From Desulfosarcina sp. (GTDB lineage Bacteria; Desulfobacterota; Desulfobacteria; Desulfobacterales; JAFDCJ01): 45,947 nt of DNA. Position numbers and translations under genes: made by a program. Each line of letters begins with the position of its first letter. The first letter of the stretch is position 1. The notes beneath the pieces are model-generated. The model searched no databases, was not told where the DNA came from, and saw only the letters and a program-made list of their open reading frames with translations. Positions 18,879 to 45,947 of this stretch are shown here, piece after piece. The DNA lies in contig JARFPZ010000140.1 in assembly GCA_029288035.1 (NCBI GenBank), positions 1 to 45,947 on the forward strand. Reading direction: 5' to 3'.

Positions 18879-21800
18879 CTAGCTACCCTGCAGGTACTTC
18901 TTAAGCCAACTCGCCGTATGGGATTTTTTGACCGCTTTTAGAAGCTCCTCAGGGGATCCGCAGGCCACCACCCGACCGCCTTCGTCACCGCCTTCGGGTC
19001 CCAGATCGATGATATAGTCGGCTTCACGGATGATCTCCATGTTGTGCTCGATAACTGCCACCGTGTTACCTTCATCCACCAGTTTCTGAAAGACGTCGAT
19101 CAAACGCTGCACGTCGGCCATATGCAGCCCTGTGGTGGGTTCGTCCAGGACATAGAGGGTGTGGCCGTCGGATCGTTTGACCAGTTGTTGTGCCAGTTTA
19201 ATGCGTTGGGCCTCACCACCGGACAGGGTCGGACTGGGCTGTCCCAGACATAGATACCCCAAGCCGACGTCGCAGACAAACTGCACGGCCCGCCGTATGG
19301 CGGGAATGGCCGAAAAAAAACGGGCCGCTTCGGCAAATGTCATCTCGAGGATCTCCGATATATTCCGGCCTCGATACTGAACCGCCAGGGTTTCGCTGTT
19401 GAATCGACTTCCCCGGCAGACCTCACAGAGGACATACACGTCGGGCAAAAAGCTCATTTCAACTTTGGGCCGGCCCTGTCCCTTGCAGTGCTCACAACGA
19501 CCCGCGGCGACGTTAAATGAAAAACGACCGGCTGAATATCCTCTGGCCCGGGCCGTGGGCGTCAGGGAGAAAAGCTTCCGGATCTCCGATAAAAATCCTA
19601 CATAGGACGCCGGCACGGAGCGCGGGGTGCGGCCGATGGGGCTGTGGTCCACTTCCAGCACACGGGTGAGGGCCCGCCAACCCGCGATATCTTGACATTT
19701 ACCGGCCGGACGACGCTGCTTCAACAACCGGTTGCGCAAACCCCGATAGATGGTTTCTTTGAGCAGGCTCGATTTTCCCGATCCCGACACACCGGTGACA
19801 CAGATCAGGCAGCCCAGGGGAAGATCGGCCTTGATTTTTTTCAGGTTGTTGACCGCAGCCCCCCGAATTGAAATACCGGGCATTTTTTTGTAAGGCCTCA
19901 AACGCGATGTTATTTTTTTGCGATGGCCGTCCATCAGAGCCCCGGTCACCGAGCGGGAAACTTTTCTCAAATCGGAAAGGCTGCCGTAAGCGGCTACGCG
20001 GCCGCCGTCCTGTCCGGCTCCAGGACCCAGATCGACAATGGTATCGGCGGCCCGGATGGTTTCTTCGTCATGTTCAACAACCAGAATGGTATTGCCCCTG
20101 TCCCGCAACGTTTTGAGGGCATCGATCAGGATCTTATTGTCCCGGGCATGCAGGCCGATGGTGGGTTCATCTAGAATATAGCATACTCCGGTCAGGTTCG
20201 ATCCGAGCTGGGCGGCCAGACGGATACGCTGGGCTTCTCCCCCGGAAAGCGTATCCCCGCTGCGGGCCAGGGAAAGATAGGAAAGCCCCAGTTGATTCAG
20301 CAGCGCAAGCCGGGTCAGCAGCTCGGCCACAATGGGTTCGGCCACCGGTTTGTCATGGGCCTTGAATTTCAATTTTTTGATGATCTCATAGACCTGCCGG
20401 GCCGGTTTTTGTACCAAATCCCAGAGTGTATAGCGGTTGACTTTGACTGCCAGGGCCTGGGGTTTCAACCGGCTGCCGTCGCATTTAGGACAGATATTTA
20501 CAGCGGTATTCTCTTCATCTTCCGGTTCCCCGATGGTCCCCAGCCCGTTGCATTTCTCGCAGGCCCCCTGCTTGCTGTTAAACGAAAACAAGCGGGGATC
20601 GAGGCTCTCAAGCCCGATGCCGCAGGTGGAACAAATGCCGTGCAAACTAAACACGTCTTCCTTGCCGCGACGGTCTAAAATCACCAAACTACCGGCGCCC
20701 TCCTCCAGAGCCCGGTCTGCCAGAGCTTCCAAATTCCCGTCCGAAAGACGTCCGATGACCAGGTCGATGTTGTGCTCGTGATATCGGCTCAAGGCCATGC
20801 CCTGCTTCAATGGCGTTATTTTGCCGTCAATGCGGGCCTTTTTGAATCCTTTTTTAAGGGCCCGGGCAAACACATCCTTGTGAAATCCTTTACGGCCGAA
20901 CACCTTGGGCGACAGCACCGTGGCCGGGGTATCGGGGTAACGACGGCGGATCTGATCGACGATGGCGGTCCGGGTCTGGGCGGTCAAGCGGCGGCCGCAG
21001 CCCGGACAGTGCTGTACTCCCAGTTTACTGAAAAGCAGTCTCAAGTAATGATAGATTTCGGTCAGAGTGGCCACGGTGGACCGGCGGCTGGCGTAACTGG
21101 TACGCTGTTCAATGGCCACCGTCGGGGCCAAGCCGGTGACTAGATCGACATCCGGTCGTTCCAGAATCTTCATATATTGACGGACATAGGGTGCCAGACT
21201 TTCCAGATAGCGACGTTGGCCTTCGGCAAAAAGAATATCAAAGGCCAGGGTAGATTTGCCCGAACCGGATACACCGGTCAGCACAACCATTTCGTTGTGG
21301 GGTAAGGTCAGATCGATGTCCTTTAAATTATGTTCACGTGCACCTTTCAATGCGATAACGTCCGAGATCACCGGATCTGAATATGCTGCCACCGATTCGG
21401 CAACACCGACAGGTGATACTTTTTGAGGTTTCAAGCGCCCCGTTCCTTTTAGATAGGCTTTTAAGAACCGGCCGGTGTGAGACCTTGTGTGTTGCGCCAC
21501 CTTTTCCGGCGGCCCGGTTGCCACCACCTGGCCACCGGCATCGCCGCCTTCGGGACCCAGATCGATGACCCAGTCGGCGGTCTTGACGACATCCATATTG
21601 TGTTCGATCACCAGGACCGTGTTGCCGCTGTCGACCAGGCGCTGTAAAGCGGTCAGCAGCCTAGCGATGTCATCAAAATGCAGGCCGGTGGTGGGTTCGT
21701 CAAATATGAACAATTTGCGGGAAAGCGCACCGGAGCCGTTGCCGACGTAGCGGGAAAGTTTGAGACGCTGGGCCTCGCCACCGGACATGGTGTTGATTGG

Positions 21801-24194
21801 TTGGCCCAGCCGGATGTATCCCAGACCAACATCGGCCAGCGGCTGGAGTGTCGATACGACCTTTTTGTTATCTTTGAAAAACGTCAGGGCCTGGTCAACC
21901 GTCATGGTCAGAATATCGTGAATGTTGTTTCCCCGGTATCGGACATCCAGAACGTCGGGATTAAAGCGCTTCCCTTGGCAATCCGGACACAATATGAACA
22001 CATCGGAAAGAAACTGCATTTCTACCTTTTCATATCCTTCGCCCTTGCAGGTTTCGCAGCGTCCGCCGGTCACATTAAAGGAGAAGTGACCGGGACCAAA
22101 TTTTCCGGCTTTGGCGGCGGCAGTATCTGCCAGCAGCTGACGAATCGGGCCCAGGGCTTTTGTGTACGTCAACGCATTCGCCCGTGGGGTGCGACCGATA
22201 GCCCGCTGGTCCACCAGCACGACATCATCGATATGGCCCATTCCCTGGATGGCAGCGTGTTTACCGGGACGGCCCTCCTGGATCCCCAGAAATTTTTTGG
22301 CGGCTTTATAAATAATGTCTTCAGCCAGGGTCGATTTGCCCGATCCGGACACACCGGTTAAGCAGACAAACAAACCGAGCGGTATCTGCACATCAATCTT
22401 TTTCAAATTGTTTTCGGCCGCTCCCTTGATTGTCAGCCAGCGGTTGCCGCGGGGGCTTCGCTGTCGATCGGCGGCGGCGATTTTACGTCGACCCTTTAAA
22501 TACTGCCCGGTAAGAGAGCCGTTGACGTCGGCGGTGGGGCCGAAATACATGACCGCGCCACCCTGTTCACCGGCTTTGGGTCCCATATCCAGCAGATAAT
22601 CGCTTTCGCGAATGATTTCCGGATCATGTTCGACCACGACGACGGTATTCGATAAATCACGCAGACCCTTCAATATGCGGATTAACCGATGGTTGTCCCG
22701 AGGGTGCAAACCGATGCTGGGTTCATCCAGAACATAGAGGGTGTTTACCAGCGAGGAACCTAAGGCGGATGCCAGCGCCACCCGTTGGACCTCGCCCCCC
22801 GAAAGGGTGCGCGACTGCCGATCGAGGGTCAGGTATCCCAAACCGACATCCCTGAGATAATCCAGACGATTGCGGACTTCCTCCCATATCAGTTGACTGG
22901 CTTCATCCCGGGGAGACATCGGCAAGGTCTTGAAAAAATCACGGGCCTGCTCGACGTTCATGGCGTAGATCCGCGCGATGTTCTGTCCGCCGAGGCGGAA
23001 GAGCAATGTCTCTTCCTTAAAGCGCGTGCCGTTGCATTCTCGGCAGACATCATAGCTACGATAGCGGGATAGAAATACCCGCGCAGTCATTTTGTAGCTT
23101 CTGGATTCCAACCAGCGGAAAAACCCTTCGATGCCGTAATAACTGCTGGTCCCTTTAACGATGGCTTTTTTGTGGGCGGCCTTCAGTTTTTTAAATGGGA
23201 TATTTGTCGGAATTTTTTGACGCCGGCAGAAGTCCATTAGGTCCGCAAATTCCATGCGCTTGTTTTCCGGATTGCCAAAGGCCTTGACGGCGCCCTCTGC
23301 CAGGGAGAGTGAATGGTCCGGTATGACGAGATCCATGTCAATCCCGATGGTGCGACCAAAACCGCGACAGGTATCACACGCACCCATGGGACTGTTAAAC
23401 GAGAAAAGATTGGGCAGAGGTGCGTTATATTCGATATTGCAATCAGCACAGGTCAGATGGCTGCTGAAGGCATAATGTTGATCCGGCCCCAGCCAGACAT
23501 CCAGTCGTCCGCCGCCGAAGCGAAAGGCCAGCTCGAACGAGTCCAGCACCCGATCTTTGTCAACTGGACGTAGGATTAACCGATCGGCCAGCACCGGTAT
23601 CTCTTTTTGGCGGCGTGCGGGCTGCCAGTCTTCCAAAGCGACAATTTGTTTTTTGAGATACAGTCGATCAAATCCCATCTGCCTGAGCGCCCCCCGAGCC
23701 TGGTCCGGCGAGGAACCGTCAACCAGATAAGGAAACGTGATGACGAGAGCCAACCCGGGCTGATGCTTTTGCAGCAGATTCCAGATATAGGCCGGCGTCT
23801 CCGGTATCACAGGTTTGCCGCATGACCGGCAGTGAAGCTGTGCCAGCCGTGCGTATAGCAGCTTGACATAATCCGTGATTTCGGTCATAGTGCCCACCGT
23901 CGAGCGCGAGGTCCGGACCGGATCTTTACGGTCGATGGCAATGGCTGGTGGGATGCCTTCGATCTTATCAACCCGGGGACGATCCATGCGATCCATGAAT
24001 TGTCGCGCATACGGTGAGAAGGTTTCCACGTAGCGGCGCTGGCCTTCGGCATACAGGGTGTCAAAAGCCAGAGACGACTTGCCCGACCCGCTGACGCCGG
24101 TGACCACGGTAATCTGATTGAGCGGAATGGCGAGATCCAGATTTTTAAGATTGTGCTGACGGGCACCGGTTACTCGAATAGATTGATTTTTCAT
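18879..24194 (-). CDS. uvrA: Double-length UvrA excinuclease ATPase (tandem fusion of two UvrA units)
   Basis: This is 1771 residues from the ATG at 24194; an upstream ATG adds 12. It is two complete UvrA copies head to tail. Numbering is from the longer start. Walker A GVSGSGKS occurs four times (about 45, 626, 986, 1480), ABC signature L/MSGGE four times (476, 815, 1328, 1669), and DEP Walker B four times. Zinc-finger cysteine pairs occur in each copy (for example [16 protein letters not shown]). The linker between copies is about 935-955. UvrA normally is 940 residues and works as a dimer; one fused chain could supply both protomers. The family damage-recognition role in nucleotide excision repair with UvrB is expected. 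Similar duplicated UvrA is known from chlamydiae and some deltaproteobacteria. Confidence 0.95.
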
Positions 24195-24474
24195 TCTGTT
24201 GTAATTTCCGATTAAATTTCCACAGGGCATAAACTAATTCCCTTTTTCAAGATAGCAATCTGGTTTTTGATCGAGAATTTCCCGGTGAGCTTGATTTGAA
24301 ATATAAGCTCGGCCACCAGGAAAGGAAGACGCAAAAAAATCGTTTGGAGTTAATCACAGCTGTGATATTAATAAAGATATCGCTGGTTGGTTGATTGGTT
24401 GATTGGCTAAGTGTTTGTAAACATGGATTTATCTCATATTTGCAAAATAACTGCTTAACCTGGATAAAATACAA

Positions 24475-36420: not shown

Positions 36421-36684
36421 ATGAAGTTAAAATTATCTTGCGGTAGGAACATCTTAATTTCGGAAATTCCAGAAAAGGGGCCGGTTCGCCTCAAACCGCT
36501 GCTGCAGTCCGTTAAGGAAAGCCATCCCCAAGTATACCAAAGCTGGTGCGAAGGTGACGGAAAACTTCGCGAGGCCTTGCCGGTATTTGTAAACGGCGAA
36601 CATATTCGCTATAGAGACGGCATGCAAACTGAACTCCACAATGGCGATGAAGTTTACATCGTACCCCTCATCACGGGAGGATGA
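36421..36684 (+). CDS. MoaD/ThiS-like sulfur-carrier protein next to AOR
   Basis: The 87-residue beta-grasp-sized protein ends in LITGG, the C-terminal Gly-Gly that MoaD/ThiS proteins use for adenylation and thiocarboxylation. HNGDEVYIVPLI is the typical strand before it. The C-terminus and position directly upstream of the aldehyde oxidoreductase support a dedicated role in making pterin dithiolene for that tungsten enzyme (inference from context). The ATG has only a weak ribosome site. The gap to the AOR gene is 171 bases. Confidence 0.82.
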   Translation: MKLKLSCGRNILISEIPEKGPVRLKPLLQSVKESHPQVYQSWCEGDGKLREALPVFVNGEHIRYRDGMQTELHNGDEVYIVPLITGG

Positions 36685-40746: not shown

Positions 40747-41508
40747 TTATTGTTGAACCCTTTTGCTGAATGACTTCACGCGGTCTGAAAAAAGCTTGGC
40801 ACACGTCGAGCAATAGTTATGGGGAGACTTCATTTCCGTATGCGAGGAAGTTCGTTTATGAATATGATCCAAAAATTTAGGGGTCGCATATAGCTTTCCG
40901 CAGCCCTCACATCTTTCCAGTGGATGCTTCCCAATGACTTCGTCCCGAATTTTGATGGTTCTGGTGTTTTCGCGATCTTCAACCAAAATAACCTTGGTTG
41001 GACATATATTCGCACAGGTTCCACATCCGATGCAAAGGCCCTCGATGGGTACGGCATAATTCACGCCATCCCTTTTTTCCATTCTAAGGGCACCAGGTCC
41101 GACAATTTCTTTGCAGACCCGGACACACAGGCGACAGCGAATGCATCCGTCTGGCGGCGGACCTGGATCAATGCCGAAGGAATTGGCCATCGCAATGATT
41201 GACTTGGCCTGGGGTGCCATCTGGAGCAGATTCTTAAACGCTCTGGTTCTGGCCCTGTTAACCGCCTTGCTTTCGGTTTTTACCTCCATCCCGTTTTTTA
41301 CCTTCAAAATACAGGATAGCATGGTGGTTTGTCTTCCACTTGACCGGCCGGGCACTTCCACAACACACAGCCGGCAGGACCCGGAAGGCTTGAGCGAGGG
41401 ATGATAACACAAGGTCGGAATTCGAAGACCGTTGGCCCTGGCCGCCTGAAGTACGGTCATATCCTCTTCGGCTTCGTATTCCTTTTCATCAATGGTAATC
41501 GTAACCAT
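40747..41508 (-). CDS. NuoG-like 2Fe-2S / 2x4Fe-4S protein with zinc-ribbon tail
   Basis: The 253-residue protein has an N-terminal 2Fe-2S domain with ligands C34, C45, C48 and C66 (CYHPSLKPSGSCRLC). Residues 80-115 replace the part where NuoG carries a His-Cys 4Fe-4S cluster, which is absent here. Two 4Fe-4S clusters follow: C122-C132 (CIRCRLCVRVC) and C159-C169 (CIGCGTCANIC). The C-terminal tail has C200, C203, C233 and C236, identical in spacing to the tail of the GltD-like protein at 42870-45041. A role passing electrons between NAD(P)H-side flavin and the Mo enzyme is inferred. RBS AAGG precedes the ATG. Confidence 0.85.
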   Translation of the reverse strand: MVTITIDEKEYEAEEDMTVLQAARANGLRIPTLCYHPSLKPSGSCRLCVVEVPGRSSGRQTTMLSCILKVKNGMEVKTESKAVNRARTRAFKNLLQMAPQAKSIIAMANSFGIDPGPPPDGCIRCRLCVRVCKEIVGPGALRMEKRDGVNYAVPIEGLCIGCGTCANICPTKVILVEDRENTRTIKIRDEVIGKHPLERCEGCGKLYATPKFLDHIHKRTSSHTEMKSPHNYCSTCAKLFSDRVKSFSKRVQQ

Positions 41509-41610
41509 ATATAATCCTTATTCTAATTAGTGGTTGAATGAAAACCAGGCTAATTTAGATTTGTTGGGTTTCGCCCTTTGAGATGATGTTCCGGTAAATG
41601 CATAATTTTC

Positions 41611-41667
41611 GTAGGTTGGGTAGAGGTACGAAACCCAACATATATGATCAGGCTCTACCCAACCTAC
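41611..41667. repeat. Long inverted repeat 1
   Basis: The perfect 15-base arms GTAGGTTGGGTAGAG and CTCTACCCAACCTAC enclose a 27-base loop. It lies in the 387-base gap upstream of the NuoG-like gene and resembles a small non-autonomous mobile repeat. Confidence 0.85.
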
Positions 41668-41708
41668 CAAAACTAGCATTAACCCCAACGTTGTATATTT
41701 TTTTTCTC

Positions 41709-41777
41709 GTAGGGTGGGCATTGCCCACCATTAACTGCCTCAATTAGCTGAATTCGGTGAGGCAGTGCCCACCCTAC
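41709..41777. repeat. Long inverted repeat 2
   Basis: Arms GTAGGGTGGGCA and TGCCCACCCTAC are perfect complements, and the inner GCCTCA/TGAGGC bases add to the stem. It lies next to inverted repeat 1 and is similar in style (GTAGG...CCTAC ends). Confidence 0.85.
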
Positions 41778-41895
41778 CAAAATACTGCTGGAATCCACTC
41801 ATAATGAATTCCAGAAACAAGAATAAATTTTCGTGTAATTCTTGTGTTTAAAGGCTAAAAGGAAAATATTCAGTATAAATTCTGCAACAACAAAG

Positions 41896-42345
41896 TTAGT
41901 CCAGCCCGGCCTCATGCAGATCGGCGATATAGTCTTTCAACTGATGAATCTCATCGATCAATGCATCGATTTGATGCTTCATCATATCCTTTAATGTCAG
42001 TATTCCAATTATTTTCTTCTCTTCTATCACCGGCAAGTAAGTAATATCGGCTGCGATCATCTTACTCAAGACAGTTGTGATGGGATCTTCGGGTTTAGCT
42101 AAAAGTAAATTGCGAGTCATCGCATTTTCCAATTGTATTTCGGAAAACGCCGCCATTTTTTTTCCCAGCAAGAATTTGAATAGCTCTTCTTTGCTAAAGA
42201 TACCGGCCGGCTGCTCATTTTCCATTACCAGTAGCACACTGACCTTGCGATCAGCCATCAAGCAGATGGCATCTTCAACCGATTGGCTGCTTGCAATCGT
42301 ATGCACCCGTCGGCCTTTGTCCTTTAACAAGGCAAGCACTTCCAA
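41896..42345 (-). CDS. CBS-domain pair protein
   Basis: This is 149 residues from a TTG with AAGGAAGG upstream. It contains two CBS motifs: residues 15-55 (SVEDAICLMADRKVSVLLVM) and about 70-125 (DPITTVLSKMIAADITYLPVI), the second ending EKKIIGILTLKD. A C-terminal helix follows (IDEIHQLKDYIADLHEAG). CBS pairs bind adenosyl ligands and often act as energy sensors. It lies 22 bases after the 70-residue gene, so both are likely one unit. In this redox cluster it may report adenylate state, but that is inference. Confidence 0.88.
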   Translation of the reverse strand: MEVLALLKDKGRRVHTIASSQSVEDAICLMADRKVSVLLVMENEQPAGIFSKEELFKFLLGKKMAAFSEIQLENAMTRNLLLAKPEDPITTVLSKMIAADITYLPVIEEKKIIGILTLKDMMKHQIDALIDEIHQLKDYIADLHEAGLD

Positions 42346-42367
42346 AGCGTCAGCCTTCCTTCACTTT

Positions 42368-42580
42368 TTAGTCATCCAGGCGCTGAAGACAATCCTGGGG
42401 AAAGCGGTGGGTACCTTTGCCTTCCAGACTTACCGCCACCAGGGCATCCGGGTCGTTGATGGTGGCATCCGGATCGGTTATGATGCCGTGCAGCCCGATA
42501 AATTCATCCATGTAGCTTTCCCAGCTTTCATCTTCCGATTTTCTAAATATTTCAACTTTTTGGCCGTGACGAAAAACCAT
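42368..42580 (-). CDS. Small beta-rich protein of unknown function
   Basis: The 70-residue protein has GQKVEIFRKSEDESWESYM and DPDALVAVSLEGKGTHRF, consistent with a small SH3/KOW-like barrel. It contains one Cys. GGAG lies 7 bases before the ATG, so it is a credible gene. No family is recognised. It precedes the CBS gene by 22 bases. Confidence 0.7.
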   Translation of the reverse strand: MVFRHGQKVEIFRKSEDESWESYMDEFIGLHGIITDPDATINDPDALVAVSLEGKGTHRFPQDCLQRLDD

Positions 42581-42639
42581 TGAAGTTCTCCTGTTTTGGG
42601 CTTAATTTCACCATAGGATGATTTAGTTGGTTAGGATCG

Positions 42640-42869
42640 TTGTAATCGTTTGGGTGGCTAGAAGCCGATGTCTTTCCCTTTTTAGGCCTTCATCTATAAT
42701 CCATAGTTTTATCTTCTCACCTTCCAATCTTCTATCCTTCTTGCCTCCAACCTCAATCCGCCTTCAGCCTCCGAGCTTCCCAGCCTCACAGCCTCCTAGC
42801 TTCCCGGCTTCTCTTTTTTATCCCCCATTCCGCCTTCTGCCCTCTACCCTATGCTCTATGCACTATGCC
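42640..42869. repeat. Pyrimidine-rich short-word low-complexity tract
   Basis: The tract contains words such as CCTTCCAATCTTCTATCC, CAGCCTCACAGCCTCCTAGC and TATGCACTATGCCCTATGC, each a 6-12 base phrase repeated with drift. It lies in the gap between the 70-residue gene and the GltD-like gene. No coding sense was seen. Confidence 0.65.
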
Positions 42870-45041
42870 CTATGCTCTGCGCCCCTTCACCGGCGCACCA
42901 GCAGCGCTGTATTTTGCCGTTGATTTTCGGGCGCAGACCTCGCACAATCGACGATCGTCGGCAACCCTGGCGACTGCGTGGGTCCGTTTGTGAACAAAGT
43001 CAAGATATCTTTCCGGCCCCAGCACGGCCCCGCAACTTTGACAATACAGCAATTTTTTTCGGTTGAGTAAGGTACCGCAGAGAGAAAGAACTCTTTCGCC
43101 GCCCCTGTCTTCCATTCTCATCGCACCGGTGGGACAATTGGTGGCGCAGGCACCGCATAAAATACACCGATCTTCGGTCACTCTGAAATCGGTTGCCACC
43201 GGGTGATCAAAATCGAAATAACCCATTTGCAAGGCGTCCACTTTCATCCTGTCACGGCAGACCTCAACGCATTTGCCGCATCTCAGGCAGATATCGCAGC
43301 GCAGGCAGCGCCGGGCCTCTTCGCGTACCATGTTTTCGGTGTGGCCCAGCTCGACCTGCTGGAATGTCGTGCGGCGACGGTCAATATTCAGCAGCGGCAT
43401 CTCGGGCCGTTTCAAGGTCATTTTGGTAATGGCGGGAACTTCCAGGTACTCGACCCTTCTACGGCGGGTCGGCACCGGCGGCATACTGGGCTGGGGAATA
43501 CCGGATAACCAACGGTCTATAGACTCGGCCGCCCGCTTACCGCCGCCAATGGCTTCGATGACAGTTGCCGGTCCGGTGACGGCATCGCCGGCCGCAAAAA
43601 TGCCCTCAAGGGAAGATTCCATGGTTGCCATCTGAACGTTGATCGTTCGACGGCGCGTCCATTCCAGGCCCTTGACGGATTCCATGCAGGCGGCATCGAC
43701 CTGTTGGCCGATGGCACAGATGATGACATCCGCACCGATGGTATATTCGCTGCCTTCGATGGGAACCGGGTATTTTCGGTCCTGTCCTTTTTTACTGACC
43801 AATTTGGCCTTCAGGCATCGCAGACCCTCCAAACGGCCCCCGCTGCCGATGATTTCGCTCGGAATATTTAAAAATTCAAACCGGATCCCTTCTTCCTCCG
43901 CCTGCTCCACTTCTTCATGGTCGGCCGGCATTTCAGAACGCGCCCGGCGGTAGGCCAGAGTCACCGATTCACATCCCAGCCGCAGACAGGTTCTGGCCGC
44001 ATCAATGGCCACATTGCCGCCGCCGATCACGACGGCATGTTTCCCCGGCACCTGCCGGTCTCCCAAGGCCACTTCTCTCAGGAAATCGATGGCTTGTTTG
44101 ACCTGGGGAAAATCCGATTCTCCGGGAATGCCCAGTTTAAATGACTGGTGGGCGCCGATGGCAAAGAAGTAAGCTTCAAAACCTTCGGTTTTCAATTGCG
44201 CGAGGGTGATATCAGTGCCGAATGCGGTATTAAACTGAAATTCCACACCCAAATTTTTTAACATGACCACTTCGCGATCGATGACCTCTCTTGGAAGCCG
44301 ATAGCGGGGTATGCCCAACAGCAGCATTCCGCCTGCCACCGGCTGTTGCTCGATAACGCGAACGCCATAGCCCTTCAATGCCAGGTAATAAGCTGCGCTC
44401 ATACCGCCGGGGCCGGCGCCGATGACGCACACCTTCTTGTTTTTGTCCGGTTCCTTGGGCGGGTTTTTATAACTGCCTTCGGACATGGCCCTCTCAGCGG
44501 CAAAACCCTTAAGCGATTTTATGGAGATCGGGGTATCAATGCGTGCTCGCACACACATGAATTCACAGGGTCTGGTACACACCAGGCCGCACACCCAGGG
44601 AAAAGGGCAATCCCGGCGGATAACGTCGATGGCCTCGGCATCGCGTCCCATTCCGATGAGGGTGACGTAAGTCGGAATATCCAGTCCGGCCGGGCAGGTC
44701 ATCTGACAGGGCGCCGGGGCCAGTCTGAGACAATCTCCTGATGAGCAGTTATGGGTGTCGATATGGCTGATAAAGATTTCGTGATGCTGCGCCAGCGCCG
44801 TTCGTACCAATTTCCCGGCATTTTTGGAGGGTTCTGATTTGCCCTGTTCTTCCAGTTTTCGGGCCAGCGATTCCATGGTCGGCAGATGCTCGGTATCACC
44901 TCTGCCATAGGCAACATCGTTTAGTAATGCCAAAATATCTTCCGCCCTGCGTCTGCTTCTAGGGTCCGTTAGACCACCAGACTCGATGGCGGCCCTCAAT
45001 TTACCGATAATATCAGTTACCGGGCATTTTGTTTCGGGCAT
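42870..45041 (-). CDS. GltD-like flavoprotein with NuoF-like N-terminus, 4Fe-4S clusters and zinc-ribbon tail
   Basis: The 723-residue protein has, in order: an N-terminal region (about 1-100) resembling the C-terminal helical domain of NuoF, with the four cluster cysteines absent; a GltD-type cysteine region (NCSSGDC, CQMTCPAG, CGLVCTRPCEFMC, about 99-163); the FAD site CVIGAGPGGMSAAYYL (about 205); the NADPH site VIGGGNVAIDAAR (about 338); and two C-terminal 4Fe-4S clusters (CLRCDICLRCGKCVEVC, CILCGACATNC). It ends in a ribbon with C667, C670, C700 and C703. It follows the ferredoxin gene by 57 bases. It should act as NAD(P)H oxidoreductase for the complex; partners are inferred. Confidence 0.87.
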   Translation of the reverse strand: MPETKCPVTDIIGKLRAAIESGGLTDPRSRRRAEDILALLNDVAYGRGDTEHLPTMESLARKLEEQGKSEPSKNAGKLVRTALAQHHEIFISHIDTHNCSSGDCLRLAPAPCQMTCPAGLDIPTYVTLIGMGRDAEAIDVIRRDCPFPWVCGLVCTRPCEFMCVRARIDTPISIKSLKGFAAERAMSEGSYKNPPKEPDKNKKVCVIGAGPGGMSAAYYLALKGYGVRVIEQQPVAGGMLLLGIPRYRLPREVIDREVVMLKNLGVEFQFNTAFGTDITLAQLKTEGFEAYFFAIGAHQSFKLGIPGESDFPQVKQAIDFLREVALGDRQVPGKHAVVIGGGNVAIDAARTCLRLGCESVTLAYRRARSEMPADHEEVEQAEEEGIRFEFLNIPSEIIGSGGRLEGLRCLKAKLVSKKGQDRKYPVPIEGSEYTIGADVIICAIGQQVDAACMESVKGLEWTRRRTINVQMATMESSLEGIFAAGDAVTGPATVIEAIGGGKRAAESIDRWLSGIPQPSMPPVPTRRRRVEYLEVPAITKMTLKRPEMPLLNIDRRRTTFQQVELGHTENMVREEARRCLRCDICLRCGKCVEVCRDRMKVDALQMGYFDFDHPVATDFRVTEDRCILCGACATNCPTGAMRMEDRGGERVLSLCGTLLNRKKLLYCQSCGAVLGPERYLDFVHKRTHAVARVADDRRLCEVCARKSTAKYSAAGAPVKGRRA

Positions 45042-45098: not shown

Positions 45099-45602
45099 TT
45101 ATTCGAAATCGGCAACTTTTTTTGCGTGCCGGTCACGTTTGGACTGGGATTTTTTTGCCGGATCGCCGAAATGAAGACATTTTGTGATACATTTGGTTAC
45201 GCAGGCCGGTTCCAGGCCCTGATCAACTCGGTCCATGCAGTAATCGCACTTGACGGCTTTTCCGGTCTCCGGGTTCCACTGGGGAGTTCCCCATGGACAG
45301 GCTGTAATGCAGGCTTTACAGCCGACGCAAAGTGTCTCGTCGACGAAGACGATACCGTCCTTGGGTCTTTTTTGCATCGCGCCGGTCGGACAGGCAGCCA
45401 CACACCAGGGCTCCTGGCAGTGAAAACAGGGCATAAATACATAAGACATGCGCGGTAGATTGTTTAATTTTTTGGGGCCTACCGGAATGATCTGTGACAA
45501 TCTGGGGCCAATCGGCAAGTTGTTTTTTGTTTTGCAGTGTGACTCGCAACTGAAACATCCAATGCAGCGTTTGGCATCCTGGTAAATATAGTACTTGCTC
45601 AT
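45099..45602 (-). CDS. Four-cluster ferredoxin subunit of a molybdopterin oxidoreductase
   Basis: The 167-residue protein carries sixteen cysteines in four groups: CIGCFSCESHC (13-23), MPCFHCQEPWCVAAC (59-71), CVGCKACITAC and CDYCMDR...CVTKC. This is the DmsB/PhsB/NrfC type, which wires the active-site subunit to a partner. There is no Tat signal or membrane anchor. The end has a basic tail (KKSQSKRDRHAKKV). GGAGG precedes the ATG. The gene starts 15 bases after the molybdopterin subunit stop, so co-transcription is near certain. Confidence 0.93.
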   Translation of the reverse strand: MSKYYIYQDAKRCIGCFSCESHCKTKNNLPIGPRLSQIIPVGPKKLNNLPRMSYVFMPCFHCQEPWCVAACPTGAMQKRPKDGIVFVDETLCVGCKACITACPWGTPQWNPETGKAVKCDYCMDRVDQGLEPACVTKCITKCLHFGDPAKKSQSKRDRHAKKVADFE

Positions 45603-45617: not shown

Positions 45618-45947
45618 TTATTCCGCTTTTTCAACCTTTACGAAACACTCCATCAGCGAATTGGCGCCTCCCACCGGATCGTAAACGCCCAACAGACCGG
45701 TTTCAAAACGATAATCTCCCAATCCCTTGTTATACCCGCGGGTTTGCCAGGGCACTTTTCGGCCGAACCCGTGGACCATGAAAACCGATTCCGGGTGAAT
45801 GAATTCGGTCACGTAAACGTTGATCGTCCCCGAATGGCTGCCGTCGGCGGAAGTCACCCGCACCCGATCACCCTTGGCAATGCCCAGTTTTGCGGCCTCT
45901 TCATCATTGAGCCATAGCTGGTTTTCAGGCATAATTTCGCTGAGCAC
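45618..45947 (-). CDS. Molybdopterin oxidoreductase, C-terminal domain only (partial)
   Basis: The gene runs off the right edge, and only the last 109 residues are visible. WLNDEEAAKLGIAKGDRVRV and the following VTSADGSHSGTI are the molybdopterin-dinucleotide binding domain of DMSO-reductase-family enzymes. The final DPVGGANSLMECFVKV resembles polysulfide/thiosulfate reductase-like catalytic subunits. The rest, including the metal ligand, lies outside the window, so substrate is unknown. It is followed directly by the ferredoxin gene. Confidence 0.88.
   Translation of the reverse strand: MLSEIMPENQLWLNDEEAAKLGIAKGDRVRVTSADGSHSGTINVYVTEFIHPESVFMVHGFGRKVPWQTRGYNKGLGDYRFETGLLGVYDPVGGANSLMECFVKVEKAE

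Follow-up and report, generated by a model that had tools for sequence, protein, structure and literature searches.

A HycF-type module with a four-cysteine tail on two redox proteins encoded beside a PhsA-like molybdenum enzyme in Desulfosarcina

What does it mean that two redox proteins of different families, encoded on either side of a CBS-domain gene, both end in four cysteines with the same spacing? The question is raised by a contig of 45,947 bases from Desulfosarcina, a bacterium of the sulfate-reducing type; the contig is referred to here as the window. The two proteins, A and B, are real open reading frames on the minus strand at the coordinates listed below, and the plus strand in this region is stop-rich.

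40747..41508, minus strand: protein A, 253 residues, with a [2Fe-2S] domain, a 2[4Fe-4S] domain and the four-cysteine tail; homologue of type-2 BfuA and WorA
Residues 1-80 of A: [2Fe-2S] domain (Fer2_4)
41002..41145, minus strand: 2[4Fe-4S] ferredoxin domain of A, Cys122-Cys169
40801..40911, minus strand: four-cysteine tail of A, C200 to C236
42870..45041, minus strand: protein B, 723 residues, with Fer4_20, FAD/NAD(P) domain, ferredoxin domain and the four-cysteine tail
Residues 104-188 of B: Fer4_20 domain
Residues 202-500 of B: FAD/NAD(P) domain
43134..43307, minus strand: ferredoxin domain of B, Cys579-Cys636
42933..43043, minus strand: four-cysteine tail of B, C667 to C703

The two proteins and their tails

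Protein A scores far below the equivalog cut-off for canonical NuoG (79.8 bits vs 470), and its domain list contains no match to a further NuoG Fe-S domain. The nearest solved relative is WorA, the A chain in structure 9MQX of an electron-bifurcating tungsten aldehyde oxidoreductase; it matches A over the full length with an E-value of 6.9e-78. Type-2 BfuA proteins are defined by clusters A1, A2 and A4 only (PMC9304861), and this set is represented in A by Fer2_4 and the dicluster domain. Judged by sequence, A fits type-2 BfuA: its size, the order of a [2Fe-2S] before a 2[4Fe-4S] domain and the tail are as in WorA and its Bfu relatives. WorA itself bears such a tail (CPICG...CPTC) with a shorter loop. 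Unlike type-2 BfuA and WorA, A has no BfuB or BfuC gene at its side in the window, and neither do most A orthologues. No NuoF- or NuoE-like gene that could provide a BfuBC core was found among the window's open reading frames around A and B, where the contig ends 0.9 kb past B. A NuoF-like gene is likewise missing beside most A orthologues, with one locus (L091) as the exception.

Protein B contains Fer4_20 and pyridine nucleotide-disulphide oxidoreductase domains. The model PRK12771 matches it with an E-value of 1.5e-150 and 502 bits, slightly under the cut-off of 516. B shares Fer4_20, FAD and NAD(P) domains with GltD/NfnB-like proteins (PRK12771, PRK12814), from which it differs by the additional HycF-type tail and by its tie to a PhsA-like and DmsB-like pair. 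It is the GltD-like flavoprotein that accompanies a PhsA-like molybdenum enzyme and a DmsB-like subunit. Canonical NuoG and GltD lack such a tail, as the initial annotation had held.

In A, the tail reads C200xxC203G, 28 residues, C233xxC236A and 16 residues to the end; in B, it reads C667xxC670G, 28 residues, C700xxC703A and 19 residues to the end. The gapless correspondence claimed earlier was confirmed: 38 aligned residues contain 12 identities and score 80 with BLOSUM62, while shuffles with fixed cysteines score 6.9 ± 11 and none of 200,000 reaches 80. The likeness is far above chance. The segments FLDHIHKRT and YLDFVHKRT are both present, one in each tail. BLASTP extends the similarity upstream through the 2[4Fe-4S] domain, and in several loci a relative's A or B matches the window's B or A at 31–34% over about 123–134 residues. 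All four cysteines are kept without exception in the 35 A-type and the 11 B-type sequences compared, an invariance that is partly selected because the A-type set was gathered partly by requiring the tail; six A orthologues chosen without this requirement also keep the four cysteines. The motif is rare elsewhere: C-terminal CxxC-x29-CxxC occurs in two of 2,889 unrelated open reading frames of the loci read, both from one unrelated family. A tail query over the genome (6.68 Mb) returned A and B as sole matches at E<1e-4, and a profile of the whole module added a third tailed protein.

In this third protein (L166:814-1830, contig C520 of the same genome), a HycF-type 2[4Fe-4S] domain and tail are joined to a membrane anchor resembling TmcC/HmcE. 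Its gene lies directly downstream of a HydN/PadI-like polyferredoxin gene.

The predicted model of A (pLDDT 91) shows a mostly confident tail fold: the first CxxC lies at a beta-hairpin, a helix follows, and a further helix begins with the second CxxC. For B the model is weaker (mean pLDDT 64, poor in the tail region) and has the same order of secondary structure elements in its tail.

Relation to HycF and the metal site

The initial annotation knew of no named domain for the tail. Pfam indeed holds no model for it, but the module is known from E. coli HycF of formate hydrogenlyase. In HycF, Cys117, Cys120, Cys155 and Cys158 hold a single metal ion, tentatively iron; they belong to a C-terminal extension that contacts HycB close to where FdhF is bound (PMC9474812). 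The 2022 report describes the site as unpredicted and conserved in formate hydrogenlyases (PMC9474812). Like A and B, HycF (7Z0S, PRK12387) carries a 2[4Fe-4S] domain followed by a CxxC...CxxC quartet, with a gap of 42 residues as compared to 41 in A and B. The loop between the CxxC pairs is 34 residues long in HycF and 29 in A and B. A HycB-type subunit and a Mo-bisPGD enzyme are the partners of HycF as well, but HycF contains no flavin or [2Fe-2S] domain and belongs to a membrane hydrogenase complex.

The HycF-family model PRK12387 matches residues 105-238 of A, including the tail, with an E-value of 5e-10, and it also matches the third tailed protein of the genome. A HycF-family search over the phylum found relatives, none of them above the cut-off. 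With profiles built without HycF, the HycF tail contributes 18–20 bits when scored with the mixed or the NuoG-type profile and 8 bits with the GltD-type one; none of 1,000 scrambles that preserve the cysteines reaches the true score. In the same way, the tail adds 39 bits when A is compared to the GltD-type profile and 28 bits when B is compared to the NuoG-type profile. Searches of the PDB with the tail alone are too weak to serve as proof of homology once HycF is left out of the profile. With a tail-only profile, HycF comes up no better than at E 0.014 and in the company of zinc fingers, and the A and B tails by themselves do not retrieve it; a tail-only match at E 1.3e-13 is circular, since HycF was part of that alignment. 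Because these searches are weak, homology to HycF rests on the whole module. On this basis, sequence comparison makes common ancestry of the modules of A, B, HycF and WorA well supported. The NuoG N-terminal domain accounts for most of what Foldseek and VIA list as matches to A, so the absence of HycF from these lists is uninformative. Rubredoxins were rejected as relatives of the tail: their matches were weak and at chance level.

By analogy to HycF, each tail is expected to bind one ion, zinc or iron, in a small treble-clef-like finger. A shared metal site, as proposed in the initial annotation, is likely. What might such a site do? The HycF metal lies 17 Å from a [4Fe-4S] cluster and a role in affinity for FdhF was suggested (PMC9474812). 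Together with the tentative assignment of iron, this proposal for HycF allows the quartet to be read as a redox-active centre with a single Fe, whose redox state adjusts how tightly subunits bind. HycF Arg122 lies next to the ion; its position, just after CxxCG, is Lys or Arg in 28 of 35 A-type sequences, as this reading would favour, but the basic residue is mostly not retained in B-type sequences, with alanine in six of 11. Furthermore, the HycF authors saw no close match to rubredoxins (PMC9474812), and the identity of the metal was never settled. We consider a redox-active centre unlikely.

A simpler assignment gives the tail a purely structural role, as a zinc finger that caps the ferredoxin domain and does not dock. 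Zinc is the usual ion of CxxC/CxxC fingers. In addition, a zinc ion stabilizes a linker in the related subunit StnB (PMC10482914). Among Syntrophaceae, a DmsB-like neighbour is missing for many NuoG-like proteins with the tail, which also speaks for a cap. On the other hand, the HycF tail touches HycB (PMC9474812), and HycB/DmsB-type genes are enriched beside tailed NuoG-like proteins. Such a neighbour was found for 18 of 35 tailed but one of 21 tail-less proteins (p 3e-4), and after removal of the A orthologues for six of 19 compared to one of 21 (p 0.04), both values being uncorrected for relatedness. A finger without any docking role is doubtful, if worth keeping in mind.

Gene neighbourhoods and the docking partner

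The surroundings of A and B in the window contain the following genes.

41896..42345, minus strand: CBS-domain protein, between A and B
45099..45602, minus strand: DmsB/HycB-like 4[4Fe-4S] subunit, candidate docking partner
45618..45947, minus strand: PhsA-like molybdenum enzyme, C-terminal fragment cut by the contig end
36856-38748, plus strand: AOR gene, preceded by a ThiS/MoaD-like gene at 36421-36684

Orthologues of A with at least 50% identity come, among named genomes, mostly from Desulfobacterota, for example Desulfosarcina cetonica and Desulfocicer vacuolatum. The expected co-occurrence of the two proteins is borne out, as a B gene lies within about 1 kb in 13 of 15 loci; the other two are a 3.2-kb contig (L087) and L088. 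Full loci are arranged as PhsA-like, DmsB-like and B, in many cases CBS, and then A; the CBS gene stands between B and A in several A-orthologue loci. B adjoins PhsA- and/or DmsB-like genes in most loci, and a PhsA-like gene was found in 12 of 15 further B loci. In one genome (G105), A lies with a NuoF-like, a PhsA-like and another A-like gene, and none of the B matches there extends as far as the tail. Of the two kinds of metalloenzyme neighbour anticipated for the tails, the PhsA-like molybdenum enzyme was found and the AOR was not: AOR genes adjoin A orthologues in none of the 15 loci, and in the window the AOR gene lies on the strand opposite A and B with other genes between. The AOR was rejected as a partner because it is not kept beside A in relatives. 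The catalytic partner of A would be PhsA-like, unlike the AOR-like enzyme of the WorA system.

The initial annotation took the shared tail as a sign that A and B may dock to each other or to a common partner. Their proximity in 13 loci and the identical spacing within 37 residues are in line with mutual docking, but several observations argue against it. None of the 15 further tailed-B loci inspected in the phylum sample has a tailed A-type gene near B. In a sample of 198 genomes, about 25 contain a B match through the tail, and besides the window's own genome four of these also contain an A orthologue. All of the GltD class shares the x29 spacing. Finally, in a tree of 103 modules A clusters with NuoG-like and B with GltD-like proteins, and the two are no nearer to each other than to other families. 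Mutual docking is therefore unsupported, and we regard it as very improbable.

The neighbouring genes and similar tails could also suggest that one protein acquired its tail from the other by a recent duplication or by gene conversion. Each tail, however, groups with its own orthologues from elsewhere, and the tree distance between A and B is 3.7, compared to 0.6 to the nearest orthologues, in a FastTree tree whose supports are modest on such short sequences. Since A and B fall into separate clades with their own families, the shared tail was inherited with an old module rather than copied between neighbours, and copying deserves next to no credence.

The tail is not private to this pair; the likeness stems from a widespread HycF-type building block rather than from a fit peculiar to A and B. 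The loci read contain the full tailed module in 66 NuoG-like, 27 GltD-like and nine NuoF-GltD proteins, counts that are not frequencies because A and B were the queries that led to these loci. Five loci (L075, L076, L079, L080 and L081) encode fusions of 1,000–1,230 residues that join NuoF, GltD and a tailed ferredoxin module. These fusions mostly adjoin a PhsA-like molybdenum enzyme. One single cluster (L091:856-10798) contains PhsA-like, two DmsB-like, NuoF-like and B genes together with two different tailed A-type genes.

A proposed role and minor features of the locus

The comparisons show that both proteins exist, that the cysteines are conserved, that the module is homologous to that of HycF and WorA, and which genes lie nearby; which metal is bound, which subunit the tails dock on and which way electrons flow are inferences. 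With modest confidence, we think it probable that both tails are HycF-type, metal-stabilized fingers on relay modules that dock on a HycB/DmsB/WorS-type subunit and are not themselves electron carriers. Docking of both proteins on a common subunit, the better half of the earlier idea, is plausible, with a HycB/DmsB-like subunit as the candidate. The module would then be used twice in this cluster, once in A and once in B. The relay parts match those of formate hydrogenlyase, with the PhsA-like enzyme in place of FdhF, the DmsB-like subunit in place of HycB and the C-terminal part of B in place of HycF. The tail of B is proposed to dock on the DmsB-like subunit. Such docking would couple the molybdenum enzyme to NAD(P)H through the FAD/NAD(P)H site of B. 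Protein A may provide a second outlet through a [2Fe-2S] relay of the BfuA/WorA type, with the module at its end. In both proteins the tail would act as a metal-stabilized docking pad. The transhydrogenase subunit StnC of Sporomusa (PMC10482914) similarly combines NuoG-like and GltD-like parts with Fe-S relays. StnC is a single chain with an FdhF-like domain, whereas A and B are separate proteins, each with its own tail.

A bolder generalization makes the quartet a plug that joins otherwise unrelated NAD(P)H, quinone and hydrogenase modules to HycB/DmsB-type subunits of molybdenum and tungsten enzymes, with a redox-active iron as the latch; we find this distinctly unlikely. The comparisons in any case extend a known but little-studied metal site of HycF to further protein families. 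HycF-type modules are common on subunits that feed other molybdenum and tungsten enzymes, and Pfam does not describe their tail. Should it turn out to be a docking pad for HycB/DmsB-type subunits, the tail would allow flavoproteins in genomes to be assigned to their molybdenum or tungsten enzymes, and its four cysteines would offer a simple handle for testing assembly.

A TauE/SafE permease gene (PF01925) is often found near the cluster. The permease and the PhsA-like enzyme together hint at a sulfur compound as a possible substrate. In several genomes (L035:16976-18703 and relatives), the PhsA-DmsB-B-A cluster is flanked by the permease and by a 209-residue protein that matches no Pfam or NCBIfam model. 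Within the window, the stretch between the CBS gene and A (41600-41830) contains two imperfect inverted repeats of the type GTAGGGTGGGC...GCCCACCCTAC, and short repeats of GGAAGCTnGGAGGCTG lie between B and the next gene (about 42700-42830). Farther away, an open reading frame of 1,783 residues on the minus strand (18879-24230) resembles two UvrA proteins in tandem.
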